A DNA stretch of 64,000 nucleotides from Watersipora subatra. Taxonomy: Eukaryota > Bryozoa > Gymnolaemata > Cheilostomatida > Watersiporidae. A program made the position numbers and the translations under genes. Location of the stretch: assembly GCF_963576615.1 (NCBI RefSeq), contig NC_088711.1, positions 10,906,869 through 10,970,868 on the forward strand. Reading direction: 5' to 3'. Shown in pieces: positions 21,896 through 53,999 of this stretch. The notes under the pieces are model-generated. The model made no database searches, was not told the DNA's origin, and was given only the letters and a program-made list of their open reading frames with translations. Position 1 is the first letter of the stretch, and each line of letters begins with the position of its first letter.

Positions 21896-23710
21896 TCAAA
21901 CGCGATGCGACTTTGTTACAAGTCGATAGTCAGTTCGTTGTGAAGTTTTCTTCGAGCATCTATCCATTGGATTTGCAGACTGGCTGACACTGGGAAGAGA
22001 CGAGTACTGTGATGAAGCAAGAGGGAACTGACTCTGCTGCTGACTTTGAGGAATCTCGGCAGACTTTCGAGATTCGAGATCGCCAACTCCGGAATCTTTG
22101 CTCATTCTGCTTTGAGCGGCAACGCTCTTCTTCGTTTCTTGCATTGACTGTAGCACTCTCATTTCCTTAAGTTCAGCTATAGAGTCTATCAAATCATCAA
22201 CAAATTTATCTCGATCATGGTTGTTTCTGGCATTGAAGTAAATCAATGGTACCCTGTCAACCTCGTACACGAGTTTGATGCCATATTGATAGTGTTCGGT
22301 GGTGAAGCATTGCACTATAACATCGCTAATACGAACAGTTCTTTTGTAGCTGTATGTTATGGCATCCTTCTTTTTAGCATATATCTTGGTTATGACTAGA
22401 AGATCATTAAAAAGAAAAATCTCTCGCTGGTGAAGCTTCTCTTTTTTATTGGGATCAGAAAGTTCATATAGGCGGCAGTAGCACACCAGCCGTCGTTCAG
22501 GAATAGCCAAAGATGGCACATTGCCTACCATCGTGCGCTCCACTTTGCGAACTTGTGACACATGGTCTGGTCCAACCCTCAGCTCGTTCTCCGAAATTCT
22601 GTTGTAAATTCGAGTTAACATGTCTATGGGTATGTCTTTACCTTGGTCAATCATTCGCAGGTTTCGAATAAATGCTTCCAGTTTCATCTTGCTAGCGGAT
22701 TTGATGTTGGGATTATGCAAGTCAGTGTTGACCATAATAATGGCATATGAGACTAGGAATATTGTGTCGACAGAATTGAACAGCTTCGTGTAGCTTGGGT
22801 TGCACACGCAGTACCACTGAGCAAACCTCTCCATAATACGCTCAATTTTTTGTGACTCACCAGGAAGTCGGAAGAGATGAATCAGCTGGCGAAGCGCTTG
22901 ATCTATCTCAAGGTCTGCAAAGTTTAGTTGTTGTATCATACACACGAGAACATCTTGATTGAACGAAGTACTAATATTACCCAGATATTCACCAATCATC
23001 TGCTTGCTCAAACCCTTCCGACCAATCAAAAACTCTGCAACTGCTCGAGCTGAGTTAGCCAGAAAGCGATGTTCCATTAGATATCGAATACCTTGTGTGG
23101 GCTTCCTGTTGAACAAATTTAAACCTATCCTATATTGCCTTTTGCGAGATCGACCACTGCAGTTACTATACCTCAGCTGAATGTCATGCAAACGAGAGTC
23201 GCTCGTTGAGTGACTTTTCACATAACTCAAAGAGTCATCATCCTCATCGGCCACAGCCTGGAAACTGTCAGGCGAGGGAGGAGCAGAAAATTCCAAACTG
23301 TTTTCATCTCTGGATGCATTCTGCAGGTTGTTCAAGGTGAATGTGCTAGGTCTTTGTGGAGAATCTGGCTGAGATGTGACAGCCACATCGCTCCACACCG
23401 AGTCCTTATCAGAAGCAATGTCAGACATAAGAAGACGTTGAACACGCAATTCATCGTGTGTATTCCGGAGCCTTGCAAAGTTTTTGGATAACGTATACTG
23501 TTTAAAGCTGGTTTGAATGATCTGGGCAGCTTGTCGTGTGTCAATGCCCCCTCTGTAACGACTCTCTAGTTCTGCCTGTGCGGCACAAGCCTCTAACGAC
23601 GCAGCACAGCACGGATTCATCTGATGGTATTGTGGAACATGGTGGAGACCAGTAACCGTACCATTACCAGATCTCATGGCAGCTTGACGCCGAGTGTGAT
23701 TGCCAGCCAT
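21896..23710 (-). CDS. IQSEC: IQSEC-type Arf guanine nucleotide exchange factor (IQ-Sec7-PH), 604 aa
   Basis: It activates Arf GTPases (Arf6 in the known family) at membranes and postsynaptic sites by GDP/GTP exchange. An IQ motif for calmodulin is at residues 58-83 (AAQIIQTSFKQYTLSKNFAR). Sec7 spans about 188-378, with the catalytic glutamate in FRLPGE (Glu285) and the hydrophobic-groove block IIMVNTDLHNPN. The PH domain is about 388-515, followed by a Ser-rich tail. All three domains lie in one uninterrupted exon, whereas animal relatives usually have many introns. A good acceptor (TTTTTGTTACAG) at 23734, in phase with the frame (seven extra codons before the ATG), suggests upstream exons, which could hold the missing N-terminal coiled coil. 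They were not found. It may be shorter than family members (often over 900 aa) for that reason. Confidence 0.9.
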   Translation of the reverse strand: MAGNHTRRQAAMRSGNGTVTGLHHVPQYHQMNPCCAASLEACAAQAELESRYRGGIDTRQAAQIIQTSFKQYTLSKNFARLRNTHDELRVQRLLMSDIASDKDSVWSDVAVTSQPDSPQRPSTFTLNNLQNASRDENSLEFSAPPSPDSFQAVADEDDDSLSYVKSHSTSDSRLHDIQLRYSNCSGRSRKRQYRIGLNLFNRKPTQGIRYLMEHRFLANSARAVAEFLIGRKGLSKQMIGEYLGNISTSFNQDVLVCMIQQLNFADLEIDQALRQLIHLFRLPGESQKIERIMERFAQWYCVCNPSYTKLFNSVDTIFLVSYAIIMVNTDLHNPNIKSASKMKLEAFIRNLRMIDQGKDIPIDMLTRIYNRISENELRVGPDHVSQVRKVERTMVGNVPSLAIPERRLVCYCRLYELSDPNKKEKLHQREIFLFNDLLVITKIYAKKKDAITYSYKRTVRISDVIVQCFTTEHYQYGIKLVYEVDRVPLIYFNARNNHDRDKFVDDLIDSIAELKEMRVLQSMQETKKSVAAQSRMSKDSGVGDLESRKSAEIPQSQQQSQFPLASSQYSSLPSVSQSANPMDRCSKKTSQRTDYRLVTKSHRV

Positions 23711-24149
23711 CTGTAGTAAGTTTACATAACTCCCTGTAACAAAAATAGTTCGAAACGTGGTCAGATTAATTAATCAAAAACAAAAGATGGCACGACGACT
23801 TCTAATTGCACCATAGACAGTTGAAAAAGTAATTACCTAACAACTTTAATTAGTCTGTTACAATTGTGACAGAATGTGACAAATATGTAGAGAACCGGCA
23901 TAATTTAAATAGCAACTATGCTCATTTAATTATGGGGCATATCCATATTCCTAACAACCACAATGGCTGAGTCCACCAAACCATTTAATGGCCGAGTCAC
24001 AGGCTGAATATAAGCAGACCACAGTGTTGTTTGTGGTTTGAGCACATTTCCATATAAAAGTTCCTTTTGATTCAGTAGAGGCAATAGGTCTATCACCTTA
24101 ATCACTTAGAGTGTTTCCTTTGTTAGTTGAATAACTATATATATAATAA

Positions 24150-24382: not shown

Positions 24383-24808
24383 AACATATGTAAAAGAATT
24401 AATACAAAAGAACATACTGCTGTTATATGATGTGCCTAGTGCCACCACAAACACCAGATATCATGCGACCACAACATTGATAACATCTTACAATGATGTC
24501 CCACATGAATGGCACAGCTGTCCACACAATTAGAAATAAAACTATTCACATCGCCGGTAACATATGTTGTAGACCATCATGCTTCAGATTGATTTTTATC
24601 AGTAAATGGAATGTGGGACAGCGTTACAATTTCCAATATTAAATTTATAGTTGTATGAGTGAGTATTGAGCAATTTGTTTCACTTTTTGCTGCTGAATGC
24701 TAATTTCTTTATTCAGCAGTAAAACTGATTAGTTGTTTAGCCTTTCATTTTAGGTCAACAGTAAAATTTATGTTACGTGTTAAATTTGTTTTCATGGGAC
24801 CATGAAAC

Positions 24809-25143
24809 AATGGTAGTAGATTTGGTAGTGGTGACCAAAGCACCTCATTAACCAATGGTAGTATATTTGGTAGTGGTGACCGAAGCACCTCATGAAACAA
24901 TGGTAATAGATTTGGTAGTGGTGACTGAAGCACCTCATGAAACAATGGTAATAGATTTGGTAGTGGTGACCGAAGCACCTCATGAACCAATGGTAGTATA
25001 TTTGGTAGTGGTGACTGAAGCACCTCATGAAACAATGGTAATAGATTTGGTAGTGGTGACTGAAGCACCTTATGAAACAATGGTAATAGATTTGGTAGTG
25101 GTGACCGAAGCACCTTATGAAACAATGGTAGCAGATTTGGTAT
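24809..25143 (+). repeat. 45-bp minisatellite, about 7.4 copies
   Basis: Each unit contains TTTGGTAGTGGTGACYGAAG, then CACCTYATGAAACAATGG, then a TAATAGA or TAGTATA variant. The unit length is a multiple of three, so several overlapping frames stay open on both strands; none has gene context. The 13-mer TTGGTAGTGGTGA also occurs in every standard 37-bp unit of the GEN1 intron array. Confidence 0.92.
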
Positions 25144-25149
25144 AGTGAC

Positions 25150-28100
25150 TGAATTATTGATAGGCTAAATAGGACCAAGTTTCGATCTGATGCTAACCGC
25201 AATACATTAAATGCAATTTATCATATACATACATCTATCATTGGTTCAAGATTGAGCAAAAATATTGGTGTCTGTTAAAAGCTCAACAAAATTTTTCACA
25301 CTATATAGATACGTTTGTTAGTACTAACAGCATTCTTTAGCAATGCTTTTTTAGCATTTATTTTCAAATTTTTACAAAAAATAATAAGCCGCCATTATGA
25401 GAAATTTCATTTGCATGAAATAGGAAGATATCGAGAGGATGCAACTTAAATGGCCAAGATACAACCGAAAGGCGTATCACTTAAAAATTGCTGTTTGCAT
25501 AAAGTGTGAAGAAGCCGATGTAAGCAAAATCTATCTTGGCTGCCAACATCATCTGGGCAGTGCTGCTATGAGTGAATACACATGTAAACAAGAAGTAATT
25601 GCTCATAAAACTGATTACTCTAAACAAAAACAAACGTTTGTCTGGCGCGGCAAAGGTTTACAACTTATATACTCATAACTAGCCCTCGAGTGCAACACGC
25701 TAGAGCTATAGGTTACTGTTAGAATTCAAAGTTTCACATTAATTAAGTTACTAAAGAGTTCAACTAGACGTTTGTAAAGTAAGAACATTTTTGAATGATA
25801 GGTTTTGTGTTGACGCAAAACAATTCCTTTTGAATGGATAAAAAAAATTATGTCAGTGAAAAATAAACAAGGGAGTCTTTGACAACAAAGCATAGCACAT
25901 CAAGCTGCAAGCTTATCCACTAAATCAATGCGCCATTCCAGAAAGAATGCTGTGCATATCGTTAGCTACAATGACAGGCTGCGTAACTGTACATCAAGTG
26001 CCTAGCAGCATACTAGCACATTCAACACATTCCATAGTAATTGAAAGTGATTGCTATGGAGTTTACACAGACATTTAGCACAGCTCGAATTCATTATAAA
26101 AGGGAATGCATGTGTAAACGCATTTTCAAACAGGTCAAGGACATGAACAACAGAAAAGACAAATATTTTTATCCTAGGTGGAGGCGCCAAGAGCACTTCG
26201 CGCTCCAAGCGGCAGTACAGGCCCCAATAACAGCATCATTTATCAAACTACTTAAGCCTTTCCTAAACCTGATGAATTTGAATAACTTACCATGATCTGG
26301 GTGCAAAATTTAAAGCCAGTTAGTTGTACATCTCACCAAATAAAGGTCCTGGTGGAGAAGGACTTGCAGAAGCACACCTACAAGGTAATGGTCAGCTAGA
26401 GTGTTGTTAGGTTATTTCCAGAATAATTACCAAAACGATTTTTCAAGGGAGGAGGATGAAGGCGTGATGGGTTGAAAGTTGGTACCACCCAGCAAGTTGA
26501 TAGGAAATGCAGCCTTACGACAAAGCGTACAAAGGAAATATTCCTGCCAGCACGCAATTGTATAGACTTTGATTATAGTGATAATATATGCAGCTTGACA
26601 AGCTCTTAACGTTCTATAAAGGAAGTAAGTGGTAATTTAACTGATGACAAACAACATTCACTCATTATTCAGCTTCCATAGGAACCCAGTAAACAGTAAA
26701 GCTATTTCAATAAACATAATTGATGGCTACTAATGAGGAAAGATGACAAACCTATCGCAAGAATAGCGGCTCCAATAACAGAGTGCACATTCCTCTTATC
26801 ATAACAGACTTACAAAACACCTGAGTAAATACTATTATCTCATTTCATAATAGTTCTGGCACTAATATATGACTATCATTTTTGCAAGCAAACAGCTCCT
26901 CATAGCTTAAGCAACCAATAAGACAATGAAGGAAGATTGTTAGCTAAAAAGAGCAAGTGAATCATTTATTGCTGTCAGGGATATTTATGACCCTCGAGTT
27001 TAACATAATTTAGGCATTGTAAAAAGCTACAACTACAATGCTTGCTAGTCAGTCAGCCATTCGTGCATACCATTTGTAACCATTAAACCTCATGTGCATG
27101 AGCACAATTTTAACTCCCTGCGTACCACAACCCACGCATATGGCTCGGCGTAACATTTGCGTATGGCCAAGAGTTGAGTGGTGCGGCTTTAGTAAGCTTC
27201 ACACAAAACATTTCTGACTAGTGAGTAGTTAATTGACCTAGTGTATCTGTACTTGAACAAAAAAACAATCATCTGTCTGCGTTCAGCAAATAGAAAATTT
27301 GTTTACAGCCGACCTTGAGCTTAGTATGGCTTTGCAAAAAAATTATTTTTTATCACGATTTCTTCTTCGCAATGACCAGTCACATCAGACGTATTACAGC
27401 TACATAGATTTCACTGATTGTTGATCTATGGACTTTGGGTGATTTATCTATTTAACAATAGAGCTAAGGAGAATGGTTATTTTTACGTTTAACAGTAATA
27501 ATTTTCCTGTCAGCTATAATAATGCTGATAACTCGTCCAACTAGGAACATGCTCATGGTAGTAGCGAAAATGACTGAAAAGTGTCTGAGCTCATTCTGCA
27601 ACATAGCTGTAGCCTTTTTATGATATCAGCTGACGTAAAATTTTATGCTGATTAATGTGGTATCTAAATCATTTTTGTAGACCATGTGGTTCAAAGATTA
27701 TGACAATTTATATGTGCCCTGGTCAAATTACGTCCTGGTAAAAAAATTAATTTAGTAACCACAAGAGTTAAACTAGAGACTGTGACTTCAGAGGCAATGT
27801 AGGATACTTTACTAGAACAACCCCATAGTTCATAGTGCTTGTTTGTAAGTGAACACTAATAGCCTGACAGAATCCAACTTATGGAAACAATGCATAATAA
27901 ATGATTTGATGCAGTGGTATAATAATATATGTATTTTTAGTCAGTACAAAGCGGAGAGGTTTTCCTAGAGGGCATAATATACTACAAGATAGTCCAATAC
28001 TATTATGGAGCATACAAAATACATCATGGGCCTCCACAATGTTAAATAGCATTTAGACAAGCTGCCAAGTTAAAATAAATACAAAAGTCACAGCAAAAAA

Positions 28101-36900: not shown

Positions 36901-39900
36901 TGAAAACCGTCTACATTGTTTTAGGGCAGCATTCGTTTTACTTTTGCATTGTACACTTCATCTTCTAACAAACAGTGCTAACAATGAATAAGAAAATTTT
37001 TTCCAAAACTAGCGCGGCACTTTTCATATCATGTATGGCTTCCAAATACATAAGACAGGCTGTGCTACCCGGTGTTGCCCGGGTAAAAAAAGTCTTTGGT
37101 CAAAAAATTGATTTGTATTTAACATATAACAAAATTTGCCATTCTAACTTTTAAACTACATATCATAAGAAAAGTGTTTTCTGTAGTTGAAATAAATTAA
37201 GAGAAAATAAAAACAACTGTCAAGGTTTTCAAACTTTGTCAAACAACTTTTAAACTTCATATCATCATGAGAATAATGTTTCGACTCTGGTCAAATACTT
37301 AGATGTTTCAGGTCAAATACTTAGTAAGTAATAACTAAATTAAGTCGGTTTTGCTACGATTACAATAAAAGATGATTCGGTAATGATACAATTAATACGA
37401 ACTGAGAAAACAAAATAAAAGTCCTGAATATGTAGAATTAATAACAATAATTCTTGCATAGAAGTGTGTGTATAAAAAAGATTACTGTTCCACCAGAAGC
37501 TATCCACCCAAACTTTGGATACGACGATACGGAGACAATATAATTGTCCGCCCGAGAATAACTAGCCTTGACCCAAGATATAGTAATCGAACCTTGGGAA
37601 AAATATTTCCTAACAGGGGCATCGTAACGCGTGGCCGCATCGGTAAAATAATCAGCGTAATCTCTAACAAGTGCACAAAATACACGCTTCTCTAAAACTA
37701 GATTAAAAAACTAAGGCATATTTTCATACTTTTTGAGAATGTCGTCACCAGATACTTCTGTACAGAACTTGATTGCTAGAGTTTTGCCCACACCAGGAAC
37801 TCCCTTGGGACAATAGTCACAACCGATGAGTATGGACAGGGCAATCAGATGACTTCTAGTGAGCTTCACTTCTTTCTCAATGTCTAGGACAGTATAGCTC
37901 TCTACACTAGGTGTCTGTGATGAACAAACATTGCATTAAGTTCTATAGCAGATGCAGAATGGAAGAAATGCTCAAAACTCTACCATAACACTGAGTATCA
38001 TTGTGAACACAACTCCAAGATTAATTAGTGTTTTTGAGTACTTTTGACTAAAATCTTTGCTCAATCAACGGCTTTGAGCTATGGTAAACTTTTAGGCCTG
38101 CAAAATGTAGAGAATGAGCAATAGCTCCTATACCAGTCCATAGAGGTTACCACATTTTGCTCTACCAATATATTACTTTCAATTAAATCTCATGAAAGGT
38201 TTACAACGTGGCAAACTTCTGCTCTTGCATGGCATACACCATCAGTCTGCACACGCTACACTAGCATAGAATACTGAATAGCCCTTTTTCTTGACATTTT
38301 ATAAACTCATGAAATCAGTGAAATGACATATAAAAGTAATTTAGCCAGAAAAGAATAAAAATCAACATGCTTTAGGTAGGCTACATTTGAAAAGTCTGCA
38401 TATAATCTTAGCTCCATGCGAGTGAGAAGCATAAATATCAAAACTAACATCAAGTTTACAAAATTGTTGATAGACATAGACATGTACCTTGGTAGTGGTG
38501 AAATTGATAAATATAGACACGTACCTTTGTAGTGGTGAAATTGATAAATATAGACACGTACCTTTGTAATGGTGAAGTTAATAGATATAGACACGTACCT
38601 TTGTAGTGGTGAAATTGATAAATATAGACACGTACCTTTGTAGTGGTGAAGTTGATAGATATAGACACGTACCTTGCAGGCTTGGGGCCACTAGCAGTGC
38701 AGTGCAATTTAAAAATAGAAATGTCTAGTACAATGCTAGTGCAAATTTGACATGAGTCCCTGGGTGCACTAGTGCAAGTGCAGTGCTTAGTGTGACATGC
38801 TATGTACTAGTGCAGTGCCTAGTGCGGATTGGAAACTCTTTCATAAATGCACTAGTGCAAGTGCAGTGCCTAGTGCGACATAGTATGCACTAGTCTAAAC
38901 TAGACCTAAATTGACTGACGCCAACTTTAAAAGGCTAATGTTCCTTCGGTCTAATAAACATCTTCTCTGAACAATAATGCTTATCAATCTTGCCATCAAT
39001 ATGACTTACTGTTTACATGATACTGGTTTATCCAAGGGTAGATTTTCTTGTTGTACATAGTACATTTATGTAATAAGAAGTGAATTCTTCCATTCCATGC
39101 TTGCTTGGTATATTTAGTTATTGTAAATGTAATACATTGCACTATTTGGTATCTGTTGTCATCTGCACTATTTAATATTGAGCATTATTGTAGGTCTATG
39201 GTTTGTTTGAAATTTTAGGTGAGGCTAGTTTATTTGACAAATACATGGCTGACATCCTTTGCACGGCTATAATTGTACTATTGCAGTGAATAGCAGTAGA
39301 TATCTGTTGATTAGCAAGCAATTCTTGCAGCTGCTATAGCAAAAAAGCTCATTGGTCTAGTGCCTAGTGAAGTTTAATAGTGAAGTGCCTAGTGCATTTA
39401 TGATTTTACACTGCACTAGTGCTAGTGCAATGTCTAGCGCACAACAATTTTTTCTATTGCAGTGCCTAGTGCATTTTTTACTTCACTTTTCGATGCACTA
39501 GTGCTAGTGCAGTGCCTAGTGCACAAGAATTTCTGCTAGTGCAGTGCCTAGTGCACCTTACTGTCGTCTAGCCAGCAAATAGTGCAGTGCGCTCAAAACT
39601 CACTAGTGGCCCCAAGCCTGGTACCTTGGTAGTGGTGAAGTTGATAGATATAGACACGTACCTTGGTAGTGGTGAAGTTGATAGATATAGACATGTACCT
39701 TGGTAGTGGTGAAGTTGATAGATATAGACACGTACCTTGGTAGTGGTGAAGTTGATAGATATAGACACGTACCTTGGTAGTGGTGATGTTGATAGATATA
39801 GACATGTACCTTGGTAGTGGTGAAGTTGATAGATATAGACACGTACCTTGGTAGTGGTGAGGTTGATAGATATAGACACGTACCTTGGTAGTGGTGAGGT

Positions 39901-42900
39901 TGATAGATATAGACACGTACCTTGGTAGTGGTGAGGTTGATAGATATAGACATGTACCTTGGTAGTGGTGATGTTGATAGATATAGACACGTACCTTGGT
40001 AGTGGTGAAGTTGATAGATATAGACACGTACCTTGGTAGTGGTGAGGTTGATAGATATAGACACGTACCTTGGTAGTGGTGAAGTTGATAGATATAGACA
40101 CGTACCTTGGTAGTGGTGAGGTTGATAGATATAGACACGTACCTTGGTAGTGGTGAGGTTGATAGATATAGACACGTACCTTGGTAGTGGTGAAGTTGAT
40201 AGATATAGACACGTACCTTGGTAGTGGTGAAGTTGATAGATATAGACACGTACCTTGGTAGTGGTGAGGTTGATAGATATAGACACGTACCTTGGTAGTG
40301 GTGAAGTTGATAGATATAGACACGTACCTTGGTAGTGGTGAGGTTGATAGATATAGACACGTACCTTGGTAGTGGTGAGGTTGATAGATATAGACATGTA
40401 CCTTGGTAGTGGTGATGTTGATAGATATAGACACGTAACTTGGTAGTGGTGATGTTGATAGATATAGACATGTACCTAGGTAGTAGTGATGTTGATAGAT
40501 ATAGACACGTACCTTTGTAGTGGTGATGTTGATAGATATAGACACGTACCTTGGTAGTGGTGATGTTGATAGATATAGACACGCACCTTGGTGGTGGTGA
40601 AGTTGATAGATATAGACATGTAACTTGGTAGTGGTGATGTTGATAGATATAGACACGTACCTTGGTAGTGGTGAGGTTGATAGATATAGACACGTAACTT
40701 GGTAGTGGTGATGTTGATAGATATAGACACGTACCTTGGTAGTGGTGAAGTTGATAGATATAGACATGTACCTTGGTAGTGGTGAGGTTGATAGATATAG
40801 ACATGTACCTTGGTAGTGGTGATGTTGATAGATATAGACATGTACCTTGGTAGTGGTGAGGTTGATAGATATAGACACGTACCTTGGTAGTGGTGAGGTT
40901 GATAGATATAGACATGTACCTTGGTAGTGGTGAAGTTGATAGATATAGACACGTACCTTGGTAGTGGTGAGGTTGATAGATATAGACACGTACCTTGGTA
41001 GTGGTGAGGTTGATAGATATAGACACGTACCTTGGTAGTGGTGAGGTTGATAGATATAGACATGTACCTTGGTAGTGGTGAGGTTGATAGATATAGACAT
41101 GTACCTTGGTAGTGGTGAAGTTGATAGATATAGACACGTACCTTGGTAGTGGTGAGGTTGATAGATATAGACACATACCTTGGTAGTGGTGAGGTTGATA
41201 GATATAGACACGTACCTTGGTAGTGGTGAGGTTGATAGATATAGACACATACCTTGGTAGTGGTGATGTTGATAAATATAGACACGTACCTTGGTAGCGG
41301 TGAAGTTGATAGATATAGACATGTACCTTGGTAGTGGTGAGGTTGATAGATATAGACACATACCTTGGTAGTGGTGAAGTTGATAGATATAGACACGTAC
41401 CTTGGTAGTGGTGAGGTTGATAGATATAGACACGTACCTTGGTAGTGGTGATGTTGATAGATATAGACATGTACCTTGGTAGTGGTGAGGTTGATAGATA
41501 TAGACATGTACCTTGGTAGTGGTGAAGTTGATAGATATAGACACGTACCTTGGTAGTGGTGAGGTTGATAGATATAGACACGTACCTTGGTAGTGGTGAG
41601 GTTGATAGATATAGACATGTACCTTGGTAGTGGTGAGGTTGATAGATATAGACATGTACCTTGGTAGTGGTGAGGTTGATAGATATAGACATGTACCTTG
41701 GTAGTGGTGAGGTTGATAGATATAGACATGTACCTTGGTAGTGGTGAGGTTGATAGATATAGACATGTACCTTGGTAGTGGTGAAGTTGATAGATATAGA
41801 CACGTACCTTGGTAGTGGTGAGGTTGATAGATATAGACACGTACCTTGGTAGTGGTGAGGTTGATAGATATAGACATGTACCTTGGTAGTGGTGAGGTTG
41901 ATAGATATAGACATGTACCTTGGTAGTGGTGAGGTTGATAGATATAGACATGTACCTTGGTAGTGGTGAAGTTGATAGATATAGACACGTACCTTGGTAG
42001 TGGTGAGGTTGATAGATATAGACACGTACCTTGGTAGTGGTGAGGTTGATAGATATAGACATGTACCTTGGTAGTGGTGAGGTTGATAGATATAGACACA
42101 TACCTTGGTAGTGGTGAAGTTGATAGATATAGACACGTACCTTGGTAGTGGTGAGGTTGATAGATATAGACACGTACCTTGGTAGTGGTGAGGTTGATAG
42201 ATATAGACATGTACCTTGGTAGTGGTGAGGTTGATAGATATAGACATGTACCTTGGTAGTGGTGAAGTTGATAGATATAGACACGTACCTTGGTAGTGGT
42301 GAGGTTGATAGATATAGACACGTACCTTGGTAGTGGTGAGGTTGATAGATATAGACATGTACCTTGGTAGTGGTGAAGTTGATAGATATAGACACGTACC
42401 TAGGTAGTGGTGAGGTTGATAGATATAGACATGTACCTTGGTAGTGGTGAAGTTGATAGATATAGACACGTACCTTGGTAGTGGTGAGGTTGATAGATAT
42501 AGACACATACCTTGGTAGTGGTGAGGTTGATAGATATAGACACGTACCTTGGTAGTGGTGAGGTTGATAGATATAGACACATACCTTGGTAGTGGTGATG
42601 TTGATAAATATAGACACGTACCTTGGTAGCGGTGAAGTTGATAGATATAGACATGTACCTTGGTAGTGGTGAGGTTGATAGATATAGACACGTACCTTGG
42701 TAGTGGTGAGGTTGATAGATATAGACACGTACCTTGGTAGTGGTGAAGTTGATAGATATAGACACGTACCTTGGTAGTGGTGAAGTTGATAGATATAGAC
42801 ACGTACCTTGGTAGTGGTGAGGTTGATAGATATAGACACATACCTTGGTAGTGGTGAAGTTGATAGATATAGACACGTACCTTGGTAGTGGTGATGTTGA

Positions 42901-45900
42901 TAGATATAGACACGTACCTTGGTAGTGGTGAGGTTGATAGATATAGACACGTACCTTGGTAGTGGTGATGTTGATAGATATAGACACATACCTTGGTAGT
43001 GGTGAGGTTGATAGATATAGACACGTACCTTGGTAGTGGTGATGTTGATAGATATAGACACATACCTTGGTAGTGGTGAAGTTGATAGATATAGACACGT
43101 ACCTTGGTAGTGGTGAAGTTGATAGATATAGACATGTACCTTGGTAGTGGTGAGGTTGATAGATATAGACACGTACCTTGGTAGTGGTGATGTTGATAGA
43201 TATAGACACGTACCTTGGTAGTGGTGATGTTGATAGATATAGACACGCACCTTGGTAGTGGTGAAGTTGATAGATATAGACACGTACCTTGGTAGTGGTG
43301 AGGTTGATAGATATAGACATGTACCTTGGTAGTGGTGATGTTGATAGATATAGACACGTACCTTGGTAGTGGTGAAGTTGATAGATATAGACACATACCT
43401 TGGTAGTGGTGAGGTTGATAGATATAGACACGTACCTTGGTAGTGGTGATGTTGATAGATATAGACACATACCTTGGTAGTGGTGAAGTTGATAGATATA
43501 GACACGTACCTTGGTAGTGGTGAAGTTGATAGATATAGACATGTACCTTGGTAGTGGTGAGGTTGATAGATATAGACACGTACCTTGGTAGTGGTGATGT
43601 TGATAGATATAGACACGTACCTTGGTAGTGGTGATGTTGATAGATATAGACACGCACCTTGGTAGTGGTGAAGTTGATAGATATAGACACGTACCTTGGT
43701 AGTGGTGAGGTTGATAGATATAGACATGTACCTTGGTAGTGGTGATGTTGATAGATATAGACACGTACCTTGGTAGTGGTGAAGTTGATAGATATAGACA
43801 TGTACCTTGGTAGTGGTGAGGTTGATAGATATAGACACGTACCTTGGTAGTGGTGATGTTGATAGATATAGACACGTACCTTGGTAGTGGTGATGTTGAT
43901 AGATATAGACACGCACCTTGGTAGTGGTGAAGTTGATAGATATAGACACGTACCTTGGTAGTGGTGAGGTTGATAGATATAGACATGTACCTTGGTAGTG
44001 GTGAGGTTGATAGATATAGACACGCACCTTGGTAGTAGTGAAGTTGATAGATATAGACATGTACCTTGGTAGTGGTGAAGTTGATAGATATAGACACGTA
44101 CCTTGGTAGTGGTGAAGTTGATAGATATAGACACGTACCTTGGTAGTGGTGATGTTGATAGATATAGACACGTACCTTGGTAGTGGTGAGGTTGATAGAT
44201 ATAGACACGTACCTTGGTAGTGGTGATGTTGATAGATATAGACACGTACCTTGGTAGTAGTGAAGTTGATAGATATAGACATGTACCTTGGTAGTGGTGA
44301 AGTTGATAGATATAGACACGTACCTTGGTAGTGGTGAAGTTGATAGATATAGACACGTACCTTGGTAGTGGTGAAGTTGATAGATATAGACACGTACCTT
44401 GGTAGTAGTGAAGTTGATAGATATAGACATGTACCTTGGTAGTGGTGAGGTTGATAGATATAGACATGTACCTTGGTAGTGGTGAGGTTGATAGATATAG
44501 ACACGTACCTTGGTAGTGGTGATGTTGATAGATATAGACATGTACCTTGGTAGTGGTGAGGTTGATAGATATAGACACGTACCTTGGTAGTGGTGAGGTT
44601 GATAGATATAGACACGTACCTTGGTAGTAGTGAAGTTGATAGATATAGACATGTACCTTGGTAGTGGTGAGGTTGATAGATATAGACACGTACCTTGGTA
44701 GTGGTGATGTTGATAGATATAGACATGTACCTTGGTAGTGGTGAGGTTGATAGATATAGACACGTACCTTGGTAGTGGTGAGGTTGATAGATATAGACAC
44801 GTACCTTGGTAGTAGTGAAGTTGATAGATATAGACATGTACCTTGGTAGTGGTGAGGTTGATAGATATAGACACGTACCTTGGTAGTGGTGAAGTTGATA
44901 GATATAGACACGCACCTTGGTAGTGGTGATGTTGATAGATATAGACACGTACCTTGGTAGTGGTGAGGTTGATAGATATAGACACGTACCTTGGTAGTGG
45001 TGATGTTGATAGATATAGACACGTACCTTGGTAGTGGTGAAGTTGATAGATATAGACACGTACCTTGGTAGTGGTGAGGTTGATAGATATAGACATGTAC
45101 CTTGGTAGTGGTGATGTTGATAGATATAGACACGTACCTTGGTAGTGGTGAGGTTGATAGATATAGACACGTACCTTGGTAGTGGTGATGTTGATAGATA
45201 TAGACACGTACCTTGGTAGTGGTGAAGTTGATAGATATAGACACGTACCTTGGTAGTAGTGAAGTTGATAGATATAGACATGTACCTTGGTAGTGGTGAG
45301 GTTGATAGATATAGACACGTACCTTGGTAGTGGTGAAGTTGATAGATATAGACACGCACCTTGGTAGTGGTGATGTTGATAGATATAGACACGTACCTTG
45401 GTAGTGGTGAGGTTGATAGATATAGACACATACCTTGGTAGTGGTGAGGTTGATAGATATAGACACGTACCTTGGTAGTGGTGAAGTTGATAGATATAGA
45501 CACATACCTTGGTAGTGGTGATGTTGATAGATATAGACACGTACCTTGGTAGTGGTGATGTTGATAGATATAGACACGTACCTTGGTAGTGGTGAAGTTG
45601 ATAGATATAGACACATACCTTGGTAGTGGTGAGGTTGATAGATATAGACACGTACCTTGGTAGTAGTGAAGTTGATAGATATAGACATGTACCTTGATAG
45701 TAGTGAGGTTGATAGATATAGACACGTACCTTGGTAGTGGTGAAGTTGATAGATATAGACACATACCTTGGTAGTGGTGAGGTTGATAGATATAGACACG
45801 TACCTTGGTAGTGGTGATGTTGATAGATATAGACACGTACCTTGGTAGTGGTGATGTTGATAGATATAGACACGTACCTTGGTAGTGGTGAAGTTGAAAG

Positions 45901-48900
45901 ATATAGACACATACCTTGGTAGTGGTGAGGTTGATAGATATAGACACGTACCTTGGTAGTGGTGAAGTTGATAGATATAGACACATACCTTGGTAGTGGT
46001 GATGTTGATAGATATAGACACGTACCTTGGTAGTGGTGAGGTTGATAGATATAGACACATACCTTGGTAGTGGTGATGTTGATAGATATAGACACATACC
46101 TTGGTAGTGGTGAGGTTGATAGATATAGACACATACCTTGGTAGTGGTGATGTTGATAGATATAGACACGTACCTTGGTAGTGGTGAAGTTGATAGATAT
46201 AGACACATACCTTGGTAGTGGTGAGGTTGATAGATATAGACACGTACCTTGGTAGTGGTGATGTTGATAGATATAGACACGCACCTTGGTAGTAGTGAAG
46301 TTGATAGATATAGACATGTACCTTGATAGTAGTGAGGTTGATAGATATAGACACGTACCTTGGTAGTGGTGAGGTTGATAGATATAGACACGTACCTTGG
46401 TAGTGGTGAAGTTGATAGATATAGACATGTACCTTGGTAGTGGTGAGGTTGATAGATATAGACATGTACCTTGGTAGTGGTGATGTTGATAGATATAGAC
46501 ACGTAACTTGGTAGTGGTGATGTTGATAGATATAGACATGTACCTAGGTAGTAGTGATGTTGATAGATATAGACACGTACCTTTGTAGTGGTGATGTTGA
46601 TAGATATAGACACGTACCTTGGTAGTGGTGATGTTGATAGATATAGACACGCACCTTGGTGGTGGTGAAGTTGATAGATATAGACATGTAACTTGGTAGT
46701 GGTGATGTTGATAGATATAGACACGTACCTTGGTAGTGGTGAGGTTGATAGATATAGACACGTAACTTGGTAGTGGTGATGTTGATAGATATAGACACGT
46801 ACCTTGGTAGTGGTGAAGTTGATAGATATAGACATGTACCTTGGTAGTGGTGAGGTTGATAGATATAGACATGTACCTTGGTAGTGGTGATGTTGATAGA
46901 TATAGACATGTACCTTGGTAGTGGTGAGGTTGATAGATATAGACACGTACCTTGGTAGTGGTGAGGTTGATAGATATAGACATGTACCTTGGTAGTGGTG
47001 AAGTTGATAGATATAGACACGTACCTTGGTAGTGGTGAGGTTGATAGATATAGACACGTACCTTGGTAGTGGTGAGGTTGATAGATATAGACACGTACCT
47101 TGGTAGTGGTGAGGTTGATAGATATAGACATGTACCTTGGTAGTGGTGAGGTTGATAGATATAGACATGTACCTTGGTAGTGGTGAAGTTGATAGATATA
47201 GACACGTACCTTGGTAGTGGTGAGGTTGATAGATATAGACACATACCTTGGTAGTGGTGAGGTTGATAGATATAGACACGTACCTTGGTAGTGGTGAGGT
47301 TGATAGATATAGACACATACCTTGGTAGTGGTGATGTTGATAAATATAGACACGTACCTTGGTAGCGGTGAAGTTGATAGATATAGACATGTACCTTGGT
47401 AGTGGTGAGGTTGATAGATATAGACACATACCTTGGTAGTGGTGAAGTTGATAGATATAGACACGTACCTTGGTAGTGGTGAGGTTGATAGATATAGACA
47501 CGTACCTTGGTAGTGGTGATGTTGATAGATATAGACATGTACCTTGGTAGTGGTGAGGTTGATAGATATAGACATGTACCTTGGTAGTGGTGAAGTTGAT
47601 AGATATAGACACGTACCTTGGTAGTGGTGAGGTTGATAGATATAGACACGTACCTTGGTAGTGGTGAGGTTGATAGATATAGACATGTACCTTGGTAGTG
47701 GTGAGGTTGATAGATATAGACATGTACCTTGGTAGTGGTGAGGTTGATAGATATAGACATGTACCTTGGTAGTGGTGAAGTTGATAGATATAGACACGTA
47801 CCTTGGTAGTGGTGAGGTTGATAGATATAGACACGTACCTTGGTAGTGGTGAAGTTGATAGATATAGACACGTACCTTGGTAGTGGTGAAGTTGATAGAT
47901 ATAGACACGTACCTTGGTAGTGGTGAGGTTGATAGATATAGACACATACCTTGGTAGTGGTGAAGTTGATAGATATAGACACGTACCTTGGTAGTGGTGA
48001 GGTTGATAGATATAGACATGTACCTTGGTAGTGGTGAGGTTGATAGATATAGACATGTACCTTGGTAGTGGTGAAGTTGATAGATATAGACACGTACCTT
48101 GGTAGTGGTGAGGTTGATAGATATAGACACGTACCTTGGTAGTGGTGAGGTTGATAGATATAGACATGTACCTTGGTAGTGGTGAGGTTGATAGATATAG
48201 ACATGTACCTTGGTAGTGGTGAGGTTGATAGATATAGACATGTACCTTGGTAGTGGTGAAGTTGATAGATATAGACACGTACCTTGGTAGTGGTGAGGTT
48301 GATAGATATAGACACGTACCTTGGTAGTGGTGAGGTTGATAGATATAGACATGTACCTTGGTAGTGGTGAGGTTGATAGATATAGACACATACCTTGGTA
48401 GTGGTGAAGTTGATAGATATAGACACGTACCTTGGTAGTGGTGAGGTTGATAGATATAGACACGTACCTTGGTAGTGGTGAGGTTGATAGATATAGACAT
48501 GTACCTTGGTAGTGGTGAGGTTGATAGATATAGACATGTACCTTGGTAGTGGTGAAGTTGATAGATATAGACACGTACCTTGGTAGTGGTGAGGTTGATA
48601 GATATAGACACGTACCTTGGTAGTGGTGAGGTTGATAGATATAGACATGTACCTTGGTAGTGGTGAAGTTGATAGATATAGACACGTACCTAGGTAGTGG
48701 TGAGGTTGATAGATATAGACATGTACCTTGGTAGTGGTGAAGTTGATAGATATAGACACGTACCTTGGTAGTGGTGAGGTTGATAGATATAGACACATAC
48801 CTTGGTAGTGGTGAGGTTGATAGATATAGACACGTACCTTGGTAGTGGTGAGGTTGATAGATATAGACACATACCTTGGTAGTGGTGATGTTGATAAATA

Positions 48901-51900
48901 TAGACACGTACCTTGGTAGCGGTGAAGTTGATAGATATAGACATGTACCTTGGTAGTGGTGAGGTTGATAGATATAGACACGTACCTTGGTAGTGGTGAG
49001 GTTGATAGATATAGACACGTACCTTGGTAGTGGTGAAGTTGATAGATATAGACACGTACCTTGGTAGTGGTGAAGTTGATAGATATAGACACGTACCTTG
49101 GTAGTGGTGAGGTTGATAGATATAGACACATACCTTGGTAGTGGTGAAGTTGATAGATATAGACACGTACCTTGGTAGTGGTGATGTTGATAGATATAGA
49201 CACGTACCTTGGTAGTGGTGAGGTTGATAGATATAGACACGTACCTTGGTAGTGGTGATGTTGATAGATATAGACACATACCTTGGTAGTGGTGAGGTTG
49301 ATAGATATAGACACGTACCTTGGTAGTGGTGATGTTGATAGATATAGACACATACCTTGGTAGTGGTGAAGTTGATAGATATAGACACGTACCTTGGTAG
49401 TGGTGAAGTTGATAGATATAGACATGTACCTTGGTAGTGGTGAGGTTGATAGATATAGACACGTACCTTGGTAGTGGTGATGTTGATAGATATAGACACG
49501 TACCTTGGTAGTGGTGATGTTGATAGATATAGACACGCACCTTGGTAGTGGTGAAGTTGATAGATATAGACACGTACCTTGGTAGTGGTGAGGTTGATAG
49601 ATATAGACATGTACCTTGGTAGTGGTGATGTTGATAGATATAGACACGTACCTTGGTAGTGGTGAAGTTGATAGATATAGACACATACCTTGGTAGTGGT
49701 GAGGTTGATAGATATAGACACGTACCTTGGTAGTGGTGATGTTGATAGATATAGACACATACCTTGGTAGTGGTGAAGTTGATAGATATAGACACGTACC
49801 TTGGTAGTGGTGAAGTTGATAGATATAGACATGTACCTTGGTAGTGGTGAGGTTGATAGATATAGACACGTACCTTGGTAGTGGTGATGTTGATAGATAT
49901 AGACACGTACCTTGGTAGTGGTGATGTTGATAGATATAGACACGCACCTTGGTAGTGGTGAAGTTGATAGATATAGACACGTACCTTGGTAGTGGTGAGG
50001 TTGATAGATATAGACATGTACCTTGGTAGTGGTGATGTTGATAGATATAGACACGTACCTTGGTAGTGGTGAAGTTGATAGATATAGACATGTACCTTGG
50101 TAGTGGTGAGGTTGATAGATATAGACACGTACCTTGGTAGTGGTGATGTTGATAGATATAGACACGTACCTTGGTAGTGGTGATGTTGATAGATATAGAC
50201 ACGCACCTTGGTAGTGGTGAAGTTGATAGATATAGACACGTACCTTGGTAGTGGTGAGGTTGATAGATATAGACATGTACCTTGGTAGTGGTGAGGTTGA
50301 TAGATATAGACACGCACCTTGGTAGTAGTGAAGTTGATAGATATAGACATGTACCTTGGTAGTGGTGAAGTTGATAGATATAGACACGTACCTTGGTAGT
50401 GGTGAAGTTGATAGATATAGACACGTACCTTGGTAGTGGTGATGTTGATAGATATAGACACGTACCTTGGTAGTGGTGAGGTTGATAGATATAGACACGT
50501 ACCTTGGTAGTGGTGATGTTGATAGATATAGACACGTACCTTGGTAGTAGTGAAGTTGATAGATATAGACATGTACCTTGGTAGTGGTGAAGTTGATAGA
50601 TATAGACACGTACCTTGGTAGTGGTGAAGTTGATAGATATAGACACGTACCTTGGTAGTGGTGAAGTTGATAGATATAGACACGTACCTTGGTAGTAGTG
50701 AAGTTGATAGATATAGACATGTACCTTGGTAGTGGTGAGGTTGATAGATATAGACATGTACCTTGGTAGTGGTGAGGTTGATAGATATAGACACGTACCT
50801 TGGTAGTGGTGATGTTGATAGATATAGACATGTACCTTGGTAGTGGTGAGGTTGATAGATATAGACACGTACCTTGGTAGTGGTGAGGTTGATAGATATA
50901 GACACGTACCTTGGTAGTAGTGAAGTTGATAGATATAGACATGTACCTTGGTAGTGGTGAGGTTGATAGATATAGACACGTACCTTGGTAGTGGTGATGT
51001 TGATAGATATAGACATGTACCTTGGTAGTGGTGAGGTTGATAGATATAGACACGTACCTTGGTAGTGGTGAGGTTGATAGATATAGACACGTACCTTGGT
51101 AGTAGTGAAGTTGATAGATATAGACATGTACCTTGGTAGTGGTGAGGTTGATAGATATAGACACGTACCTTGGTAGTGGTGAAGTTGATAGATATAGACA
51201 CGCACCTTGGTAGTGGTGATGTTGATAGATATAGACACGTACCTTGGTAGTGGTGAGGTTGATAGATATAGACACGTACCTTGGTAGTGGTGATGTTGAT
51301 AGATATAGACACGTACCTTGGTAGTGGTGAAGTTGATAGATATAGACACGTACCTTGGTAGTGGTGAGGTTGATAGATATAGACATGTACCTTGGTAGTG
51401 GTGATGTTGATAGATATAGACACGTACCTTGGTAGTGGTGAGGTTGATAGATATAGACACGTACCTTGGTAGTGGTGATGTTGATAGATATAGACACGTA
51501 CCTTGGTAGTGGTGAAGTTGATAGATATAGACACGTACCTTGGTAGTAGTGAAGTTGATAGATATAGACATGTACCTTGGTAGTGGTGAGGTTGATAGAT
51601 ATAGACACGTACCTTGGTAGTGGTGAAGTTGATAGATATAGACACGCACCTTGGTAGTGGTGATGTTGATAGATATAGACACGTACCTTGGTAGTGGTGA
51701 GGTTGATAGATATAGACACATACCTTGGTAGTGGTGAGGTTGATAGATATAGACACGTACCTTGGTAGTGGTGAAGTTGATAGATATAGACACATACCTT
51801 GGTAGTGGTGATGTTGATAGATATAGACACGTACCTTGGTAGTGGTGATGTTGATAGATATAGACACGTACCTTGGTAGTGGTGAAGTTGATAGATATAG

Positions 51901-53999
51901 ACACATACCTTGGTAGTGGTGAGGTTGATAGATATAGACACGTACCTTGGTAGTAGTGAAGTTGATAGATATAGACATGTACCTTGATAGTAGTGAGGTT
52001 GATAGATATAGACACGTACCTTGGTAGTGGTGAAGTTGATAGATATAGACACATACCTTGGTAGTGGTGAGGTTGATAGATATAGACACGTACCTTGGTA
52101 GTGGTGATGTTGATAGATATAGACACGTACCTTGGTAGTGGTGATGTTGATAGATATAGACACGTACCTTGGTAGTGGTGAAGTTGATAGATATAGACAC
52201 ATACCTTGGTAGTGGTGAGGTTGATAGATATAGACACGTACCTTGGTAGTGGTGAAGTTGATAGATATAGACACATACCTTGGTAGTGGTGATGTTGATA
52301 GATATAGACACGTACCTTGGTAGTGGTGAGGTTGATAGATATAGACACATACCTTGGTAGTGGTGATGTTGATAGATATAGACACATACCTTGGTAGTGG
52401 TGAGGTTGATAGATATAGACACATACCTTGGTAGTGGTGATGTTGATAGATATAGACACGTACCTTGGTAGTGGTGAAGTTGATAGATATAGACACATAC
52501 CTTGGTAGTGGTGAGGTTGATAGATATAGACACGTACCTTGGTAGTGGTGATGTTGATAGATATAGACACGCACCTTGGTAGTAGTGAAGTTGATAGATA
52601 TAGACATGTACCTTGATAGTAGTGAGGTTGATAGATATAGACACGTACCTTGGTAGTGGTGAGGTTGATAGATATAGACACGTACCTTGGTAGTGGTGAA
52701 GTTGATAGATATAGACACGTACCTTGGTAGTGGTGATGTTGATAGATATAGACACGCACCTTGGTAGTAGTGAAGTTGATAGATATAGACATGTACCTTG
52801 GTAGTGGTGAGGTTGATAGATATAGACACGTACCTTGGTAGTGGTGAAGTTGATAGATATAGACACGTACCTTGGTAGTGGTGAGGTTGATAGATATAGA
52901 CACGTACCTTGGTAGTGGTGAAATTGATAAATATAGACACGTACCTTGGTAGTGGTGAAGTTGCGATATACAGTTCGAGCGCCATAAAGAAAAGCATCAC
53001 CGTCATCCGTAATCACTGCATCCACCAACTAAAGCATACGTCAGGTATTTAGGGCAGTGCAGGAAGCAGCCAACAGACTAATGTCATGAAGTGAACAGCA
53101 TCAGTTTTTTCTAGTTAATAGAGATGCCAACCTACTCCATGGCTGTTGAGGGCAGCACACGTAGCCTCTGCTTCTCCATCTGCCATAATTATTGGGACGC
53201 CTAAATAGCCTAGCATCTCACAGCACTGCAAAGAGGTTATTGAAGTTATGTCACCGTTGTTGCATATTGCTCAAATGATACGGCTAAATGACAAAACATC
53301 AAATTAGCCACAAAGTAGAACCAACAAAGTTGTGTGAGGACAGCTCCAAGTCTATCACAAAGCAGAATATAATCTCAGACCTCTTTAATGACAGAACTGA
53401 ATTGACTTCTATTAGCTCGCCTGGCTGAAGTTTTTCCCGAGTTTGATTCAATGCGCCTGCCATGCCTTTGATTCTGGCGCTCGGCCATTACCTGCCATTT
53501 CAGCTCTGGGGCTTTGCCATCAATAACAAACACCGGCAGAATATTGGCGTGAAGCAGAGCAGAGGTTCGGAAGAAAAGATTTCTGTCAAACAAAGCAAAC
53601 TTGCAAACAACTGATCAGAAAATCTATATCAGAGTCATTCATAAAAAATATGATGAAGCTACTTTTCCATAACAGTTGCTGGCAGTCATGTAAAATACTA
53701 ACCCATTATGATTTAATTTAGAAGTCTAAAATGAATTTAATTCAACATTGTCTGGATTCAATGAATAATGATAAGGAACATATACGCACTGTATCAAGAG
53801 AAGTGACTCATTCAGAGCAATGAAGAATAAATACTTACCTCAAATGTGGTCGAGTAACAGCGCCCATCATTTGCTTGACACACTGAGAGTCAACAACCCA
53901 AATACTCAAATCTATAGCTACTTTCTGGCCTGAGATATCATCAAAACTCTTTTTGCAGGCTACTGGGGTTAACAAAGGCCACAGCTCTTTCACACCCAT
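30157..53999 (-). CDS. GEN1: GEN1-type Holliday-junction resolvase, 10 exons, 656 aa
   Basis: An XPG/Rad2-family nuclease that cuts four-way junctions symmetrically. Exons (minus strand): 53839-53999, 53381-53582, 53136-53225, 52945-53028, 37730-37914, 36609-36711, 35763-35846, 33214-33409, 32050-32157, 30157-30914. All introns are GT-AG, phases match at each join, and the total is 1971 nt. The N-terminus MGVKELWPLL is the XPG start. Metal-binding acidic residues are Asp30, Asp75, Glu139, Glu141 (GEAEA), Asp160, Asp162 (TDDGDAF) and Asp212 (GCDY), followed by the helix-two-turn-helix PKGVPGVGK and a chromodomain (about 336-360, QPHRIVKKRVRQGVECLEVEW). Position 75 is Asp, as in FEN1, where vertebrate GEN1 has Glu. 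The cysteine-rich stretch between H2TH and chromodomain of vertebrate GEN1 is absent. Intron 4 is 15,030 bp and almost wholly minisatellite. Confidence 0.95.
31125..31827. mobile_element. Tc1/mariner-type MITE in GEN1 intron 9
   Basis: The termini CAGTGGAACCTTGGTTCTTG and its near-complement (CAAGAACCAAAGTTCCACTG) are flanked by TA on both sides (31123-31124 and 31828-31829). The element is 703 bp, has no transposase frame, and has internal copies of TTTTCGACCA in both orientations. CAGTG ends plus a TA duplication are diagnostic of the Tc1/mariner group. Confidence 0.88.
32050..32157 (-). CDS. GEN1: GEN1 exon 9
   Basis: 108 nt between ATTTACAG|AC and CTCTA|GTAAAG. It encodes an acidic linker after the chromodomain (SEDDAEPLPLVTVEPLVTME) and ARAVEEFNS. 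The alternative of reading on past the donor would add about 50 residues of intron-like sequence, and the phase match with exon 10 argues against it. Confidence 0.75.
32679..33124. mobile_element. Foldback/TIR element bounded by TTAA in GEN1 intron 8
   Basis: Long imperfect inverted repeats: GAGGTGATCTGACTG near 32767 pairs with CAGTCAGATCACCTC near 33028, and TATCAGGAAGTATC pairs with GATACTTTCTGATA. The outer ends are TTAAAGA...TCTTTAA. TTAA at both ends suggests a piggyBac-like TTAA target. No transposase is present. Confidence 0.65.
33214..33409 (-). CDS. GEN1: GEN1 exon 8 (chromodomain)
   Basis: Bounded by GCTCTAG|GC and TCGG|GTAATT. It reads AFHLAKMEWPLNYSLEKMLP, then the chromodomain core RIVKKRVRQGVECLEVEW. 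This is the clearest GEN1-specific signature, separating it from FEN1, EXO1 and XPG. Confidence 0.92.
33654..35485. repeat. 19-bp minisatellite in GEN1 intron 7, about 96 copies
   Basis: The unit is CTTGCTAGGTGACATAGAC. Variants are ordered in higher-order blocks: GACATAAAC followed by CATAGGCC recurs at 34102, 34273, 35052 and near 35262, with 171-bp (9 units) and 779-bp (41 units) offsets exact to the unit. A block with CTAGCTAGCTGATGAGAAC plus GAAGGGAATC recurs several times. It lies between exons 7 and 8. Confidence 0.95.
35763..35846 (-). CDS. GEN1: GEN1 exon 7
   Basis: 84 nt, phase 0 at both ends (AATTTAG|ATG; CTCAG|GTACC). It encodes MLTEFANKSCKVPA, then IWRKPLISKAQ, matching the region before the chromodomain (EF-x-N-K in the family). 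Confidence 0.8.
36609..36711 (-). CDS. GEN1: GEN1 exon 6
   Basis: 103 nt between GCTTTAG|G and TCACAG|GTAACA, in phase 2 with exon 5 (codon AA|G). It encodes LEQWATRGLSGTETSAETL, then ATKICNMTANNFSQ. It replaces the longer Cys-rich stretch of vertebrate GEN1. Confidence 0.78.
37060..37300 (+). repeat. Dispersed repeat, copy 4 (3' truncated)
   Basis: GCTGTGCTACCCGGTGTTGC, CCGGGTAAAAAAAGTCTTTG and the following block matching copies 1 and 2 up to AAGGTTTTCAAACTTTGTCA. The 3' AATAGCTATAGCC end is missing. It lies in GEN1 intron 5. Confidence 0.65.
37730..37914 (-). CDS. GEN1: GEN1 exon 5 (last catalytic Asp and H2TH)
   Basis: The acceptor TTCATCACAG|AC follows the 15-kb intron. It encodes ILIGCDYCPKGVPGVGK with Asp212 and the helix-two-turn-helix DNA-binding loop. 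The donor is taken as AAAAA|GTATGA (phase 2), since reading on meets a stop after eight residues and exon 6 fits the phase. Confidence 0.9.
38677..39620. mobile_element. Non-autonomous hAT-type element inserted in the 37-bp array
   Basis: The 944-bp element has terminal inverted repeats CAGGCTTGGGGCCACTAG / CTAGTGGCCCCAAGCCTG and a perfect 8-bp target duplication GTACCTTG at 38669-38676 and 39621-39628. Eight-bp duplications and CAGG-type ends are typical of hAT. Subterminal regions are crowded with GTGCAGTGCCTAGTGC-like repeats, typical transposase-binding arrays. No transposase frame is present. Removing it restores the array register exactly. Confidence 0.92.
40370..46430. repeat. Array block A (older or source half of a tandem block duplication)
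   Basis: The order of unit variants in this block recurs in 46430-52720. Markers checked at offset 6068 (164 units): 40432/46500, 40473/46541, 40621/46689, 41293/47361. At offset 6290 (170 units): 42401/48691, 42625/48915, 45691/51981, 46321/52611. A six-unit difference therefore lies between 41.3 and 42.4 kb. Confidence 0.88.
46430..52720. repeat. Array block B (tandem duplicate of block A)
   Basis: It is nearly identical in variant order to block A. A single-base difference is visible at 45898 (GAAAGATATAG) against the B position 52188 (GATAGATATAG). Near 52720 the two diverge (CACG in B, CATG in A near 46429), marking the block end. Confidence 0.85.
52945..53028 (-). CDS. GEN1: GEN1 exon 4, whose 3' end seeds the array
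   Basis: 84 nt, phase 0 at both ends. The acceptor is CTTTAG|TTGG and the donor AAG|GTACGT. It carries catalytic Asp160 and Asp162 in TDDGDAFLYG and ends VYRNFTTTK, aligned with VYRNFTMNTK at the equivalent place in vertebrate GEN1. The last 28 nt resemble the repeat unit (exon TATATCGCAACTTC against array TATATCTATCAACTTC), so the authentic donor is the first member of the array. Confidence 0.95.
53136..53225 (-). CDS. GEN1: GEN1 exon 3 (GEAEA motif)
   Basis: 90 nt between CTTTGCAG|TG and ATGGA|GTAGGT, phase 0. It encodes EMLGYLGVPIIMADGEAEA with metal-coordinating Glu139 and Glu141. Confidence 0.93.
53381..53582 (-). CDS. GEN1: GEN1 exon 2
   Basis: 202 nt between TTTGACAG|AA and AAAGAG|GTCTGA (a weak donor, fixed by phase and alignment). 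It encodes NLFFRTSALLHANILPVFVI, then DGKAPELKWQ with Asp75, a Lys/Arg-rich helical arch segment, and RSQFSSVIKE. Confidence 0.88.
53839..53999 (-). CDS. GEN1: GEN1 exon 1 (N-terminal nuclease motif)
   Basis: The ATG at 53999 gives MGVKELWPLL. Gly2 follows the initiator Met as in all XPG-family enzymes, whose N-terminus reaches the active site. VAIDLSIWV carries Asp30. The donor is TTGAG|GTAAGT. Too short and spliced to stand out as an open frame. Confidence 0.93.

Follow-up and report, generated by a model that had tools for sequence, protein, structure and literature searches.

Whether position (being transcribed first, exon definition) or number decides the choice of a 5' splice site is the question posed by a minisatellite in the GEN1 gene of the red ripple bryozoan, Watersipora subatra. 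Behind one authentic site in one transcript lie hundreds of donors that are nearly identical and have matched flanks on the exon side, which makes the locus a natural experiment on donor choice. The reading that we favor, with a probability of about 0.72, is that a neutral array was seeded at the exon 4/intron 4 junction, is tolerated, and is spliced out via the first donor.

GEN1 gene and the exon 4/exon 5 border

The stretch of DNA that was analyzed (the window; 64,000 bp, C4:10906869-10970868) belongs to chromosome 4 of a genome assembly of 783,720,542 bp in 239 contigs, and its minus strand carries GEN1, the gene of a Holliday-junction nuclease. Exons 1–5 joined into one 240-residue open frame, which matched the solved human GEN1 (5t9j) over residues 1–240 (E 5e-70), and the alignment was unbroken across the exon 4/5 border. 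The genome matches to exons 4 and 5 numbered five; these exons themselves were the top two, and the other three showed 29–36% identity. The match to 5t9j and the single best genome locus identify the gene, at the level of sequence similarity, as GEN1, a nuclease gene of the XPG/FEN1 family. An Rfam search of the window at gathering scores returned no match. The features of the gene are as follows (window positions; a slash marks the exon–intron junction).

53839..53999, minus strand: GEN1 exon 1
53381..53582, minus strand: GEN1 exon 2
53136..53225, minus strand: GEN1 exon 3
52945..53028, minus strand: GEN1 exon 4 (84 nt), ending in ...YRNFTTTK and aligned with 5t9j across the border; array unit 1 takes its exon half from the final 19 nt
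52944..52945, minus strand: authentic exon 4 donor AAG/GTACGT, with the junction between 52945 and 52944
37915..52944, minus strand: GEN1 intron 4 (15,030 bp), 90% of which is the array
37732..37914, minus strand: GEN1 exon 5 (approximately 183 nt), beginning with TPSVESYT; its donor end is approximate

Structure of the array and census of its donors

The earlier note had described minus-strand units of 37 bp that each contain AAG/GTACGT or a close variant, in a grid of 366 donor positions that is unbroken once one transposon is removed, and had taken the first unit to be the coding end of exon 4. All three observations were reproduced in the following features.

38470..52963, minus strand: 37-bp minisatellite of 366 in-register units, with the insert set aside; the commonest unit, CAACCTCACCACTACCAAG/GTACGTGTCTATATCTAT, occurs in 83 of the 366
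38677..39620, unstranded: 944-bp insert bounded by 18-bp terminal inverted repeats (18 identical bases) and flanked by an 8-bp target-site duplication, CAAGGTAC
38430..38469, minus strand: unique intron 4 sequence past the last unit, beginning with CAAC as the commonest units do

The 944-bp insert, which we take to be a hAT-like non-autonomous transposon from the length of its target-site duplication and the form of its terminal inverted repeats, is the only break in the 37-bp grid, and the register is regained after 952 bp. The count of 366 includes the unit split by the insert but not the one extra donor copy supplied at 38676 by the target-site duplication. Unit 1 combines the coding sequence for NFTTTK at the end of exon 4 with 18 nt of intron 4, an assignment on which the 5t9j alignment and the fusion of the exons agree. 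AG was found at −2/−1 in 366 of 366 units and GT at +1/+2 in 360, the other six having TT. The donors comprised AAG/GTACGT (205 units), AAG/GTACAT (90), AAG/GTATGT (43), AAG/GTGCGT (17), and other forms (11).

Both GT and +5G were kept in 267 units; the remaining 99 are weak or dead donors because one or the other is missing. The picture of a true donor followed by 365 near-copies therefore needs qualification, as it suits the 52 units that differ from unit 1 solely at intron base +15, and are thus identical from −19 to +14, but not these 99. Thirty unit variants were present in the array, with a mean pairwise difference of 4.7%. GTACAT and GTATGT, the commonest donor variants, are both products of CpG loss, and most donor variation falls at this CpG. 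The two products were uneven (A at +5 in 94 units and T at +4 in 43), in units that are copies of each other and hence not independent. Selection on the donors was considered and provisionally rejected on the predominance of CpG variation.

Origin of the array

NFTTTK, the peptide encoded by the exon half of the unit, aligns with NFTMNTK of human GEN1, the W. subatra segment being one residue shorter. The motif leading into the border, [VI]Y[RK]N, was present in 118 of the 120 homologues listed (120 of the 656 found); the two exceptions read IYKDFTTTK (P0001) and LYRNFTISTK (P0029). P0001 is the nearest relative among the homologues listed (56% identity), and it continues from FTTTK into exon 5-like sequence without the array peptide. 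An exact 32-mer of the array occurred 182 times in the 784-Mb genome, all 182 in the window. A 35-mer with up to three mismatches occurred 364 times, all in the window and on the same strand, and zero times when read backwards. Chance cannot account for recurrence on this scale. The earlier note had reasoned that an unrelated exon 4 end in relatives, together with the same satellite at many loci, would mean that the satellite invaded the donor; at three mismatches or fewer in 35, copies were found at this locus only.

Judged from these alignments, the exon half of the unit is ancestral. Because it is ancestral, and because the unit is restricted to the GEN1 locus at the thresholds used, the exon 4/intron 4 junction seeded the minisatellite and not the reverse. 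The proposed birth of the array from this junction thus gains support from both the homology with human GEN1 and the location of 364 of 364 near-matches in this array.

CAAC opens unit 1 and directly follows the last unit; although only 4 bp long, it could plausibly have served as the microhomology in the founding event. In the mechanism that we propose, 37 bp across the junction would have been duplicated in tandem, probably between the CAAC at the exon end and the CAAC in the intron. Haber and Louis (1998) reportedly described the seeding of minisatellites between short direct repeats; the founding segment in GEN1, with CAAC at each end, resembles that situation, and a repeat length of only 4 bp is the difference.

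Growth of the array and the number of units

After its founding, the array would have expanded within intron 4 through unequal exchange or slippage. The variant CAATTTC was confined to units 2, 363, 365, and 366, and ATATTTAT occurred in units 1, 362, 364, and 365 and in four interior units. The last five units differed from the rest by 10.6%, compared with 4.5% among the first 361. From this distribution of edge variants and the divergence of the last five units, the edges of the array look old and its middle young. The expansion probably included one very recent duplication of approximately 6.3 kb, or else the assembly has doubled that block.

46452..52704, minus strand: units 8–176 (169 units), first copy of the duplicated block
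40384..46414, minus strand: units 178–340 (163 units), second copy, either a recent real duplication or an assembly doubling

Of 162 unit pairs compared between the two copies, one differed; the second copy is also shorter by one indel of six units, and a run of 113 consecutive units (4,181 bp) is identical in both. The lag of this internal duplication is 6,290 bp (40384-52704), which is approximately the mean length of a HiFi read. By our own arithmetic, the read totals in the accessible text of the genome report (13.30 Gb in 2.20 million or 30.93 Gb in 5.33 million reads) give a mean of approximately 6 kb (PMC12902671). The count of 366 is provisional because such reads are typically shorter than the array and the blocks are near-identical; with the second copy left out, 203 units remain.

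It is accordingly possible, although it is not what we favor, that the assembly has inflated or deflated the count, with the second block an artefact or a copy of the wrong size; this would be compatible with a neutral array seeded at the junction. The near-identity of units 8–176 and 178–340, with their 113-unit exact run, and the similarity of block size to read length point to such a doubling, whereas the indel and the substitution make the two copies distinguishable. Recent block duplication within minisatellites is commonplace, which also counts against an assembly doubling.

Minisatellites in the genome and in other genes

Twenty stretches of 10 kb at fixed coordinates on ten chromosomes were sampled for tandem repeats. 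Repeats with a period of at least 10 occupied 23,918 of the 200,000 bases, and arrays of at least 2 kb (2.2 to 4.1 kb) were present in five of the 20 stretches. The W. subatra genome, the only one sampled, is rich in long minisatellites. It is reported to hold 16,835 genes with 5.52 exons per transcript (PMC12902671, accessible text). Random seeding would place approximately 70 arrays over donors genome-wide, a crude estimate that comes from a small sample and assumes no selection. An array over a donor, as in GEN1, is thus to be expected in this genome rather than singular, and a minisatellite-rich genome should contain dozens of splice-site-derived arrays.

A minisatellite that provides multiple splice donor sites was reportedly described in human IFI6 by Turri, Cuin, and Porter in 1995 (NAR 23:1854). 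Its unit is shorter and present in tens of copies, and the authentic end of the exon, with its donor, forms the first of them. The GEN1 array shares this last feature, and its units likewise hold an intact 5' splice site (AG/GT in 360 of 366, with +5G also in 267). It differs in having a 37-bp unit in hundreds of copies over approximately 13.5 kb and in being known from the genome sequence alone, whereas donor use in IFI6 was seen in mRNA. In IFI6 (G1P3, 6-16), two downstream repeat units act as donors, giving three mRNA species in all (PMC4526556, accessible text).

Internal tandem repeats at exon–intron boundaries have also been catalogued in human segmental duplications, where they lead to alternative splicing via novel introns (27 intron modifications) and average four units of 30 bp (PMC2812944, accessible text). 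Minisatellite expansion at a boundary is common to these cases and GEN1, but the GEN1 array has some 90 times more units. A third comparison is the gain of introns when a segment containing AGGT is duplicated in tandem, as in the Rogers model, in ATP2A1, and with 24-bp repeats in fission yeast (PMC4974935, accessible text). The AG/GT held by 360 of the 366 GEN1 units is the signature that lets such duplicates serve as splice sites, but in GEN1 the duplicated donor belongs to an existing intron, intron 4, without which exons 4 and 5 would not be joined. The statement that no described gene is of this sort can therefore be retained for scale alone, in view of IFI6 and the catalogued boundary repeats. 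The GEN1 array is a very large case of an already known phenomenon, unmatched only in scale in the literature searched; that search, which most subscription papers lay beyond, found no donor array of comparable size.

Predicted use of the array donors

Donors and acceptors were scored with a donor matrix and an acceptor matrix. The authentic exon 4 donor scored 88, compared with 97 for exon 1, 71 for exon 2, and 67 for exon 3. In a donor-strength scan of all 366 units, 267 scored at least 84, higher than the exon 2 and exon 3 donors and lower than the exon 1 donor.

Use of the nth donor would add 37n nt to the mRNA. With n = 1 or 4, a stop was predicted after 5 nt of exon 5, and with n = 2 or 5 after 10 nt, whereas n = 3, 6, 9, and 30 kept the frame; these computed outcomes agree with the claim that the insertion is in frame when n is a multiple of three. 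The out-of-frame products would be expected to undergo nonsense-mediated decay because both stops lie far upstream of the end of exon 5 (approximately 183 nt). On the sense strand, the array has four stops across three frames in 13,324 bp, and the frame of exon 4 read into the array meets its first stop at residue 3514; with so few stops, in-frame products would carry 37-residue blocks. The open sense frames could be read as a sign that translation is tolerated, although shuffling the commonest unit also gave stop-free sequences in 13% of cases. On the same comparison, selection for open frames was rejected as an explanation of the stop-free commonest unit.

We propose that the array has been tolerated with the first donor intact, transcribed first, and alone in closing a short 84-nt exon behind a real acceptor. 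The first donor would be expected to dominate because it closes this exon near the real acceptor and is the earliest of the donors to leave the polymerase. It would then be the one mainly used, and the array would leave with intron 4. The next few donors would be used rarely, mostly giving a premature stop and nonsense-mediated decay. Of the competing donors in DOK7, which lie 11 nt apart, the one nearer the intron is preferred and is also the stronger (PMC5585400, accessible text). By analogy, this preference would argue against dominance of the first donor and for downstream use.

Substantial use of downstream donors, as in IFI6, would yield GEN1 mRNAs with 37n extra nt, in which multiples of three add 37-residue blocks to the nuclease domain while the rest are decayed and GEN1 output is lowered. 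We consider this unlikely. The IFI6 precedent, the 52 units identical to the authentic junction between −19 and +14, the strength of most array donors relative to those of exons 2 and 3, and the long open frame from exon 4 all speak for it. However, two in three donor choices break the frame immediately. A protein search with the peptide of exon 4 plus the array also found nothing at E ≤ 0.001 among 7990 candidates scored, which is a weak point against downstream use, as the best GEN1 match listed in that collection was only 56% identical. It is more doubtful still that GEN1 transcripts use many of hundreds of equivalent donors, giving a ladder of mRNAs spaced by 37 nt, with a stop-free 37-residue block added to the nuclease domain at every third rung. 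If this were true, the dose and structure of GEN1 would depend on the length of the array, which may vary between colonies.

The array might alternatively be a functional platform for U1 binding (a U1 sink, a shield from early polyadenylation, or a means of retaining the transcript on chromatin), which we regard as very improbable. The canonical 5' end ATACTTACCTG was found at the match start in eight of eight U1 loci examined (42 matches scored), so U1 pairing with the array donors is possible; hundreds of U1-complementary sites lie within one intron, and AATAAA is absent from the array up to the insert. Against such a role, the CpG variation of the donors resembles ordinary decay, and chance would be expected to produce arrays of this sort in this genome. 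The predicted cost of opening the donor was also higher in the array (mean of 36 sampled donors) and at the authentic site, at 6.2 kcal/mol, than at 60 random GT sites (4.3 kcal/mol), all computed with the 9-nt frame one base off (−4 to +5).

Recursive splicing at each AG/GT unit has even less to recommend it. AG stands immediately before the donor in all 366 units, and the acceptor scores of these AGs (median 66) exceed two of the five GEN1 acceptors scored, namely exon 4 (57) and a tentative later exon (65). The other three GEN1 acceptors scored 80–85, however, and 22% of the window's other AGs (5,778 in number) score as high as those of the units; recursive splicing was discarded on these middling values. 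The invasion of an unrelated satellite that overwrote the exon 4 donor is the least credible account; nothing was found in its favor, and it was discarded since zero copies lie elsewhere in 784 Mb (up to three mismatches in 35) and the exon half of the unit is conserved in protein across animals.

Other repeats and features

A second minisatellite of GEN1 lies in a later intron (35472-33653, minus strand), with approximately 96 copies of a 19-bp unit. Its commonest unit also contains CAAG/GT, along with CTAG, and the array is not at the edge of an exon. It starts approximately 290 bp beyond a tentative exon placed at 35846-35763 by a weak match (E 0.078), and an exon-derived origin, which was considered for it, looks unlikely.

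Elsewhere in the genome, at least 42 U1 snRNA genes were clustered on one strand in C5:45786606-45984104, with some neighbors 1.37 kb apart. Within the window, a 45-bp minisatellite of approximately eight copies at 24801-25153 is open in two minus-strand frames, and a nearby open reading frame (21899-23773) reads like an IQSEC/Sec7 protein, as named by eye. Tandem repeats of 15, 27, and 69 bp occupy 5351-6124, and part of them forms, by eye, a repeated plus-strand peptide. A 950-codon open frame at 13965-16814, also named by eye, resembles a LINE endonuclease/reverse transcriptase.
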